The translations under genes were made by a program, and so were the position numbers. Under the pieces are notes generated by a model, which was not told the DNA's origin, did no database searches, and was given only the letters and a program-made list of their open reading frames with translations. This document shows positions 22,143 to 25,706 of a DNA stretch of 42,490 bases, piece after piece. The stretch is taken from contig JAJZLN010000031.1 in the NCBI GenBank assembly GCA_021803425.1, forward strand, positions 1-42,490, read 5' to 3'. How positions within the stretch are numbered: the stretch's first letter is position 1; each line of letters begins with the position of its first letter. Source of the stretch: Microcaldota archaeon (GTDB lineage: Archaea; Micrarchaeota; Micrarchaeia; Micrarchaeales; CABMGC01).

Positions 22143-23165
22143 TCAGGTGGTCTTGATTTTTTGGGCTGGGCCGTTTTCTGTGGATTTGCTTTCTGCATTC
22201 TGCCTTGCTGCTTGGGCGTTATAAGCTTGCACCACCATATTTATTATGTCCTGATTTCTGCTGTCATTGGCATATGAAAGCGCATTTTTGTTATTTATGT
22301 CCGAAGCAGAAAGATCAACACCCTTGTCTATTAGCTTCTTCACAATTAAGGTATTTTGCTTCTCAATCGCAATCATTATGGGGGTTTTTCCCGATTTTGT
22401 GCGTTGATTGCAATCTGCACTGCAATCTATAAGCAGCACTGCAATGTTGGTATCCCTATCAAGGGCTATTGCATACGCCAGTGGGCTTTGACCCATAGAA
22501 TTCATATTGTCTATGGAGGCTTTGGCATCCAGCAATATTTTTATAATTTCTTCGCTGCCTGTTGAAACGGCATAATGAAGAGGAACATTTAGTTTGGAAT
22601 CGGGCCTGTTAACATCCGCGTGATAATCAATAAGCATTGAAACCAGCTTTGCGTTTTTCTTAAATATTGCAACATCAAGCGGAACTGTGGTCAGTTTTCC
22701 GTTGTAAAGCCCGCAATAATTTGGATCTGCGCCTTTATCGAGAAGCATCTTTGTTACTGACACCCTATTTCTTGACAGAGCATTTATAAGAGGCGTAAAA
22801 CCACCTACGCCAACAACATTTATAGGTGAATTGGCTTCTTCCAAAAGAAAACGGACCGCTTCGCAAGAACCGGACGATGCTGCATAGATAATTGGTATAT
22901 CCGCTTTTATTTCTTGGAACGGGTCTCCCTCTACTTTTGCACCTGAATTAATAAGAAGTTTAAGCATTGCGCCCCTTGAATCGTCATTTAATATTGCAAG
23001 ATTAACCGGCATTATAGGAACTTTTCCGCCATTGATGAATAATGGCTTGTTAGGGTCGGCTCCAAGATTCAGTGCTATGTCTACTTCATCTGCATTTTTG
23101 TCCAGCAGTATACTGTCTCGCAGAAGTACATATGCAATATCCTTTATGGATTCTGATTCAGCCAT
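22143..23165 (-). CDS. Ankyrin-repeat protein
   Basis: The 340-residue protein consists almost wholly of about eight ankyrin repeats of 33-38 residues, for example GGFTPLINALSRNRVSVTKM and GQSPLAYAIALDRDTNIAVL, with the typical G-x-TPL-x-x-A start and LL-x-x-GAD-x-N ends. No signal peptide or membrane segment is seen. The C-terminal 30 residues are polar and disordered (NAESKSTENGPAQKIKTT). Ankyrin arrays bind proteins. They are uncommon in free-living archaea but occur in small-genome symbionts, where host interaction is often suggested; no direct evidence is available here. Confidence 0.93.
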   Translation of the reverse strand: MAESESIKDIAYVLLRDSILLDKNADEVDIALNLGADPNKPLFINGGKVPIMPVNLAILNDDSRGAMLKLLINSGAKVEGDPFQEIKADIPIIYAASSGSCEAVRFLLEEANSPINVVGVGGFTPLINALSRNRVSVTKMLLDKGADPNYCGLYNGKLTTVPLDVAIFKKNAKLVSMLIDYHADVNRPDSKLNVPLHYAVSTGSEEIIKILLDAKASIDNMNSMGQSPLAYAIALDRDTNIAVLLIDCSADCNQRTKSGKTPIMIAIEKQNTLIVKKLIDKGVDLSASDINNKNALSYANDSRNQDIINMVVQAYNAQAARQNAESKSTENGPAQKIKTT

Positions 23166-24259: not shown

Positions 24260-24547
24260 TCAGGCCTTTTCTAGATGCATCTGCGGTACGATGAGCTTCC
24301 TTACCGAAGACTTTGAAGTGTTGATTTTTACTATGTATGACGCCCCCTGCCTGCCTATTACCACTCCAATCCTCCCCCTATACCTTGGATGAGGTATATT
24401 CGCAAAATTTGACTTTGGAAGTATAAGCACCCTGTCATTGACGTTGAAATCCTTTATGAGTTTGGTTATGCCTAGCTTTGAAGGCTTGTGGTGTCTGGCA
24501 AGGTGTCTTGTCCTACCTACAAAAAGCCCGTGGGATCTTTGCGACAT
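24260..24547 (-). CDS. rpl21e: Ribosomal protein L21e
   Basis: The 95-residue basic protein begins MSQRSHGLFVGRTRHLARH and contains the family core DFNVNDRVLILPKSN and HPRYRGRIGVVIGRQGASYIVKI. L21e is an archaeal/eukaryotic large-subunit protein with an SH3-like barrel. In many archaea L21e, rpoF and the DUF655 gene lie in one direction. Here L21e is on the opposite strand, facing DUF655 and sharing an upstream region with the TBP gene. Possible TATA-like elements for it lie around 24570-24600. Confidence 0.95.
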   Translation of the reverse strand: MSQRSHGLFVGRTRHLARHHKPSKLGITKLIKDFNVNDRVLILPKSNFANIPHPRYRGRIGVVIGRQGASYIVKINTSKSSVRKLIVPQMHLEKA

Positions 24548-24645
24548 TTATATCATCTTTGTTATCAAAATATGGCTGAAAGTACAGATATAGTACATAA
24601 ATACCTTTATAAATACTTTATGTCATATTTAAAGATAGTGGTAAA
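24548..24645. promoter_or_regulatory. Divergent promoter region between L21e and TBP
   Basis: This 98-base spacer holds TTTATAAATAC near 24606-24616 on the plus strand, centred about 35 bases upstream of the TBP ATG. On the minus strand TATTTATG and ACTATATC (about 24575-24600) are candidates for L21e. The plus-strand box is among the strongest TATA-like sequences in the window. Since TBP binds such sites, autoregulation is possible but unproven. Confidence 0.55.
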
Positions 24646-24975
24646 ATGGCTAAAGCTCAAGTTGAGATTGGAAGGACAAAATCCGGAAAGAGAGTGGAAC
24701 TTCATCCTAACTTCAAGATAGAGAATATTGTTGCTAGCGCTGACCTTGGTGTGGAGCTTGACCTGTATGGTATAGCAAAAGAATCTCCTGACGTTGACTA
24801 TGAGCCTGAGCAGTTCCCTGGAGCAATATGCAAGATACACGAGCCGAAAACGGCAATACTGCTCTTCAAGAATGGAAAGATAATATGCACTGGTGCGAAG
24901 ACTGAAGCGGATATTAAAAAGGCAATAAGCCAAGTAATAAAAATAGTGAAGAACTATATCCTTGAATCTTCCTGA
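24646..24975 (+). CDS. tbp: Single-lobe TATA-binding protein (half-length TBP)
   Basis: The 109-residue product has a 23-residue N-terminal extension and then one complete TBP repeat. The repeat contains KIENIVASADLGVELDLYGI (24-43), DYEPEQFPGAICKI (51-64), EPKTAILLFKNGKIICTGAK (66-85) and a closing helix. DNA-contacting Asn27 and Val29 and the two kinking phenylalanines (Phe57, Phe74) are present. Normal TBP is about 180 residues with two such repeats. The stop is at 24973-24975, and neither side contains a second repeat in any frame. To form the usual saddle it would have to homodimerise or pair with another lobe. The gene is divergent from L21e. EPKTA and CTGAK resemble the first repeat of ordinary TBPs. 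Confidence 0.9.
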   Translation: MAKAQVEIGRTKSGKRVELHPNFKIENIVASADLGVELDLYGIAKESPDVDYEPEQFPGAICKIHEPKTAILLFKNGKIICTGAKTEADIKKAISQVIKIVKNYILESS

Positions 24976-25028
24976 AATTGAGAGCTAATTGCGCTTTTGG
25001 CCGGATATGCGCTGCGGCATGCTGCAAT

Positions 25029-25652
25029 TCATTCGCTGCGTATCTTTTTAGAAGCGACGCGATATATCAGATATAAGACTATTCCGAATGCTGCAATTGA
25101 GACCAATACCATACCTGGATTTGAAGACGACAGGGCATAATACCCAAATCCAATAAGCACTGCATTCCATATCATTGAGCCCAGTATCGAATAAATGTAA
25201 AATCGCTTCAGTTCCATCTTTGCGAATCCGGCAGGAAAGCTTATCAGACCCCTCATTACTGGAACAAGCCTTGCAAAAAACACAGACGCGGCGCCATTGA
25301 TTGAAAACCACGAATCAAAAGAATCCAGTGACTTCTTGCTTATATGGAATTTGTCCATATGTTTGTATACTATGTCTTTTTCAAGATAATATGCTATCGC
25401 ATAATCAATGGATATGCCTATTGCCGTGCCGATCACGGAGGCAGTAAAAGCCACATATGGATTAAGATGAAATGATGCATAACTAGAAGTAGAAAGCTTG
25501 CCCACAAGAGGAAGAAGCACTTCGCTTGGTATGGGCATGGAAGCGGATTCCAGCGCCATAAGAAATATTATTGCAATGTAACTGTATGAATACAAAAGAG
25601 TGCTTATTCCTGAGTACGTCAATGCAGCAATTGAAAAAATAAACAGATCCAT
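25029..25652 (-). CDS. DedA family membrane protein
   Basis: The 207-residue protein has five or six hydrophobic helices and the DedA hallmarks: ESASMPIPSEVLLPLVGKL near the N-terminus and FFARLVPVMRGLISFPAGFAKM in the second half, with the conserved Arg and GxxxA/G pattern. DedA proteins act in polyprenyl- and phospholipid flipping and in membrane homeostasis. ATG 25652 is used in preference to GTG 25661. It lies downstream of pyruvate kinase on the same strand with about 54 bases between them. Confidence 0.92.
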   Translation of the reverse strand: MDLFIFSIAALTYSGISTLLYSYSYIAIIFLMALESASMPIPSEVLLPLVGKLSTSSYASFHLNPYVAFTASVIGTAIGISIDYAIAYYLEKDIVYKHMDKFHISKKSLDSFDSWFSINGAASVFFARLVPVMRGLISFPAGFAKMELKRFYIYSILGSMIWNAVLIGFGYYALSSSNPGMVLVSIAAFGIVLYLIYRVASKKIRSE

Positions 25653-25706
25653 ATTTATCACAGATTTTTGTGCATCGATTGTGGCGCAGTCTGCGCAGTA
25701 AATTTG

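Follow-up and report, generated by a model that had tools for sequence, protein, structure and literature searches.

A single-lobe TATA-binding protein in the archaeal class Micrarchaeia and its possible history

The locus and its protein

The window (the whole stretch of DNA that was analysed, 42,490 nucleotides) carries on its forward strand, at positions 24646–24975, a gene for a TATA-binding protein (TBP) of 109 residues plus a stop codon, matched by the TBP model PF00352 in one stretch. Its divergent upstream neighbour (24260–24547, reverse strand) encodes ribosomal protein L21e (PF01157, 2.7e-11) and its convergent downstream neighbour (25029–25661, reverse strand) a membrane protein of the VTT/DedA type (PF09335, 7.4e-20), a neighbourhood that is retained in relatives. 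No degraded second lobe adjoins the TBP gene, both neighbours being ordinary genes on the opposite strand. The gene has a probable TATA box of its own (TTTATAAA, 24606–24613, forward strand) lying 33–40 bp 5' of the start codon, with the same core and the same distance as the motif found upstream of genes throughout the genome (median start −36). A search with an anti-phage defence library gave no match. Elsewhere in the window, upstream of the TBP region, the reverse strand encodes a 340-residue protein (22143–23165) that, judged by eye, is ankyrin-repeat-like, and a tRNA match of 121 nt (2808–2928) is some 50 nt longer than the model and so probably carries an intron.

As an earlier note on this DNA had it, the 109 residues contain one complete TBP repeat: PF00352 is matched once, at all 85 of its positions, by residues 22–104 (105.7 bits, E=1.1e-30, cut-off 22.9). 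This lobe proper (24709–24957, forward strand), recognised by both the profile and AlphaFold2, comprises strands S1–S5 and helices H1 and H2. The residues singled out in the same note are all present and are invariant in 44 relatives, namely Asn27 and Val29, which contact the minor groove, and the kinking phenylalanines Phe57 and Phe74. The alignment of these relatives contains 33 invariant columns, including the DNA- and TFB-contact residues, and places strand S1 among the best-conserved parts of the protein. Equally invariant is the stirrup YEPEQFPG (residues 52–59; 24799–24822, forward strand), which holds E53 and E55 at the TFB-contact positions as well as the kinking F57; its YEPE segment recurs in 106 of 106 single-lobe proteins and in 40 of 40 lobes of the two-lobe TBPs of Micrarchaeia. 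According to PMC7221094, the stirrup glutamates of TBP bind TFB/TFIIB.

The protein is 45–47% identical to the lobes of Pyrococcus TBP. Its single chain was modelled by AlphaFold2 with a core pLDDT of 92–95, and its superposition on a single lobe of solved TBPs gives about 1.0–1.5 Å (6uep_B: rmsd 1.0, 77 columns); among solved structures its best matches come from archaeal TBPs, either lobe of each aligning separately with it. The canonical two-lobe TBP (PF00352; PDB 1pcz, 1ais, 2z8u, 1mp9) has the same lobe fold, kinking phenylalanines, Asn/Val contacts and stirrup glutamates. It differs in that the protein studied here has one lobe per chain and would presumably form the saddle as a dimer, whose stirrups would then be identical. 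Two tandem lobes per chain define a canonical TBP, and the 109-residue chain has one; the NCBIfam PRK00394 series for the full-length archaeal protein gives at best 94.5 bits, below the cut-off of 278, with half of the model covered.

Distribution of single-lobe TBPs and their paralogs

The window's genome, that of a Candidatus Micrarchaeota archaeon, consists of 880,901 bp in 33 contigs and is 93% complete (7% estimated missing); its sequence was obtained in pieces, about 647 kb of the 881 kb. A six-frame PF00352 search yielded one match at E<=0.001, the gene at 24646–24975, and even at the permissive E<=10 no second TBP lobe emerged from this 93%-complete genome, which bears out the absence of a second repeat claimed for the window. 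Throughout the genus the same search model finds exactly one single-lobe TBP in 11 of 12 genomes, the twelfth (G004) having no TBP match at all, and a 97%-complete relative in 3 contigs (G013) also has only one. Among 60 relatives of the order, all TBP matches are single-lobe ORFs save for an in-frame repeat at a contig end in G027. There (L024, 1495–1897) 98 nt identical to the end of the single-lobe TBP gene stand in frame before it, the mark either of a tandem duplication of the lobe in the very recent past or of an artefact of the assembly end.

That 24646–24975 might be a truncated pseudogene or an assembly error of a normal TBP is hardly credible. Beyond the general risk attached to metagenome assemblies we found nothing in favour of such a reading, and against it stand the stop-free open frame, its strong conservation, and the fact that dozens of independent genomes carry the gene with identical length and ends. 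A frameshift or assembly error at 24970–25030, which the earlier note had considered a possible source of the short frame, is ruled out, because the same single-lobe gene is present in those 11 congeners. The single-lobe TBP of the window is a real observation.

Two single-lobe paralog types exist in the order: A (IENIVASADLGVELDLY), to which the window's protein belongs, and B (IQNIVVSADLHATIDLY), encoded at a separate locus. Both are present, at separate loci, in all but one or two of the sampled genomes of family f2 and in about half of the genera of f1. Two single-lobe matches, 630 kb apart, are also found in the cultivated strain Candidatus Micrarchaeum sp. A_DKE (NZ_CP060530), a remoter relative within the order (64% identity) whose genus NCBI taxonomy places in class Micrarchaeia, order Micrarchaeales. 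It seems probable that in the sister genera type A works with the second, separately encoded lobe. Residue 22 (24709–24711), just before S1, is mostly K or N in genomes with A alone and D or E in 14 of the 16 A proteins from genomes with both; this charge could bear on the choice between homodimer and heterodimer, and the pattern is suggestive and confounded by ancestry.

These A plus B genomes, together with the pair of matches in A_DKE, speak for the idea that the window's protein is one partner of a heterodimer whose other lobe, B or a diverged one, is missing from the assembly. A further point in its favour comes from the B locus. In f1 genomes B is flanked by a glycosyltransferase on one side and the thermosome on the other; the window's genome has both of these flanks without B, and between them, at the syntenic site, a run of 1446 Ns (contig C16, 28746–30191; L232, 8746–10191), where relatives keep either B or an ORF of about 430 residues. 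Against this, B scores 73–91 bits with the Pfam model and would not be overlooked, and it is absent from every congener that has a TBP match as well as from G013 and its near relative. No B was found upstream of the thermosome in congeners, and in four of them the flanked site is free of gaps and lacks B, one of these four having a run of 100 Ns close by. We therefore regard the heterodimer with a missing partner as quite improbable for the window's genome; since the congeners show no B at this site, the gene appears to be absent from the genus, which would have kept only A. A hidden second lobe in the window's own genome was considered and set aside, both the E<=10 search and the B site of the congeners standing against it.

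For the class as a whole we surveyed 146 genomes sampled across the phylum, the families being labelled f1 to f21. Single-lobe TBPs are the only kind in f1, f2, f8, f9, f10, f11, f13, f14, f15 and f17, and apparently in f21; in the distant f17 there is one in 11 of 11 genomes. Two-lobe TBPs of about 185–230 residues occur in f3, f4, f5, f6, f7, f12, f16, f18 and f20, with a single-lobe gene in mid-contig in one genome from this two-lobe clade (G139, f6). The single-lobe TBP is a class-wide trait: the search of related genomes that the earlier note had proposed finds it to be common to the genus, the order and further families of the class.

A few peculiarities were met along the way. Some f11 genomes (L172–L175, L082) have two or three single-lobe TBPs, some of them nearly identical and close together, as in G087, where two lie within 1.3 kb. 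In a sister family, G093 (L071) has single-lobe matches and an extra two-lobe TBP that is unlike those of Micrarchaeia and groups with other archaea, either as a contamination or as a transfer from another archaeon. The RpoA' open frame measures 1133–1170 residues in f10, f13, f15 and f17 (L324–L327) versus about 860 elsewhere, perhaps through inserts or a fusion with the neighbouring subunit.

History of the lobe

In a species tree built from RpoA' and EF2, all nine two-lobe genomes fall into one clade (100/100) nested among single-lobe lineages, and the clade stays nested when the tree is rooted with the RpoA' of Pyrococcus and Thermococcus, a root that consists of two outgroup sequences, both from Thermococcales and both for RpoA' only. 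In a tree of the individual lobes, the Micrarchaeia lobes, whether N, C or single, stand apart (98/96) from both kinds of lobe, N and C, found in other archaea. Between the two lobes of one protein the identity is 51–79% in two-lobe Micrarchaeia TBPs versus 42–54% in Pyrococcus, Methanocaldococcus and Sulfolobus. Two signatures mark this kinship: FPGA is found in 145 of 146 Micrarchaeia lobes and FKNGK in 141 of 146, compared with none of the 8 outgroup lobes for either, and each occurs in both lobes of the two-lobe proteins. Those of f3–f7, f12, f16 and f18 resemble the window's protein in carrying FPGA, FKNGK and EPEQ stirrups in both lobes; they differ from it in having two lobes in one chain, and they are found in one clade of genomes.

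The simplest history that such comparisons suggest would be the loss of one lobe before the ancestor of the class, one re-duplication and one later re-loss. The ancestor of Micrarchaeia, then, had probably lost one lobe; a two-lobe TBP would later have been regained in one clade through tandem duplication. In the order Micrarchaeales the single-lobe gene would have duplicated to give A and B as separate paralogs, and the window's genus would have retained A alone.

The main rival to this loss and re-duplication is a two-lobe TBP inherited throughout the class, about six independent losses of a lobe, and a likeness between lobes that is due to concerted evolution (gene conversion), which could mimic shared ancestry. 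Every solved TBP from other archaea and from eukaryotes has two lobes, and the mid-contig single-lobe gene of G139, inside the two-lobe clade, indicates that loss of a lobe can happen. Nor does the AU test reject descent of the Micrarchaeia C lobes with the other C lobes (p=0.114, from 86 alignment columns), or several other groupings of lobes. However, the corresponding vertical descent of the N lobes is rejected (p=0.0036), class-specific residues are common to both lobes, and about six losses would be needed on the rooted tree in place of three events, namely a loss, a gain and a re-loss. On balance we hold multiple losses to be rather unlikely.

A single-lobe homodimeric TBP is thought to have preceded all two-lobe TBPs, and the earlier note had linked the window's protein to that form. 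Micrarchaeia could indeed have retained the pre-duplication TBP, the two-lobe proteins of the class then having arisen by a second duplication, independent of the ancient one. The separation of all Micrarchaeia lobes from those of other archaea is compatible with such a relic; the trees nevertheless speak more for a lobe lost secondarily, ahead of the class ancestor, and we find retention very improbable.

We also considered, and did not adopt, a fission of TBP that would have left an N-lobe gene and a C-lobe gene as A and B. Type B is C-lobe-like in places, and the AU test does not reject its grouping with the outgroup C lobes (p=0.19, on the same 86 columns), but A and B group together in the lobe tree with support of 100/99.

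A possible symmetric saddle and its promoters

The textbook TBP is a fused pseudo-dimer whose two-lobe form is taken to account for its shape as well as for transcriptional direction, and in which the S1 strands pair the two lobes. For a single-lobe protein, to judge from its sequence, the simplest way to work would be as a homodimer. Given that the DNA-binding strands and the kinking residues are complete, two type A chains paired through their S1 strands would give a full, symmetric saddle, able to bind and bend an 8-bp TATA box. This saddle would have at either end a TFB-binding stirrup with its TFB-contact glutamates; with stirrups at both ends, it would fall to a canonical TFB, reading the BRE on one side, to choose the direction. 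Homodimerisation, TATA binding, TFB-set polarity and the order of evolutionary events are what we infer here. Taken as a whole, a general TBP cut down to one lobe, acting as a homodimeric saddle whose direction is set by TFB and BRE, and with a history of loss followed by re-duplication, is the reading that we favour and consider probable.

The protein might instead act as a monomer, one TFB-held lobe kinking a single TpA step and RNA polymerase being recruited without a full saddle. PMC4041446 reports that TFB is required for DNA bending by the Sulfolobus TBP, and TFB could by the same token compensate for a missing lobe; moreover, single TBP domains elsewhere, such as that of RNase H3, act alone according to PMC7221094. 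Yet the motif upstream of genes throughout the window's genome retains a TATA core of the full 8 bp that is informative at either end, which suits two lobes acting together rather than one, and the lobe-pairing strand S1 belongs to the most strongly conserved parts, though DNA contact is a second role of this strand. We judge the monomer distinctly unlikely and keep to the homodimer.

The single TBP domains of RNase H3 and of DNA glycosylases have the helix-grip TBP fold once, as here; they differ in being fused to enzymes and in their weak structural similarity (RNase HIII, E=0.32). Nearer at hand are proteins of some archaea with, as in the window, one TBP domain, which Brindefalk et al. (2013, NAR 41:2832) reportedly described and which PMC7221094 mentions in passing. 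Our literature searches returned no description of a single-lobe or homodimeric TBP in Micrarchaeota. What appears to be new is that whole lineages have a single-lobe TBP and no other, together with the pairing of A with B and the two-lobe clade nested among single-lobe lineages. Lineages whose only TBP has one lobe allow the old idea of a homodimeric TBP to be put to a direct test in living cells. The class would amount to a replay of the duplication, with homodimers (A only), separately encoded paralogs (A and B) and two-lobe TBPs fused anew side by side in related organisms, and its one-lobe lineages would separate the share of TBP in promoter polarity from that of TFB and BRE.

Bidirectional-looking TATA boxes had been offered as an argument for a symmetric TBP, an argument that finds no support here. 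The correlation of the TATA motif with its reverse complement is no higher in the window's genome (0.62) or in another single-lobe genome (0.62) than in a two-lobe relative (0.66), in a coarse comparison of two single-lobe genomes with one two-lobe genome that depends on simple ORF calls and start choices. The TATA flanks show no clear difference between the single-lobe and the two-lobe genomes, being A-rich upstream and T-rich downstream in the former and more weakly so in the latter. Promoter symmetry speaks neither for nor against the homodimer.

The orientation of archaeal initiation complexes depends mainly on TFB and BRE, as Bell et al. are said to have found in 1999, so that a symmetric TBP need not lessen the directionality of transcription. 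The less directional promoter binding that the earlier note had envisaged is accordingly not implied by what the window's genome encodes: a single-copy, canonical TFB with a zinc ribbon and two cyclin repeats, whose C-terminal BRE-recognition helix (VTEVTIRNRYREL) is nearly identical to that of a Pyrococcus-type TFB (VTEVTVRNRYKEL).
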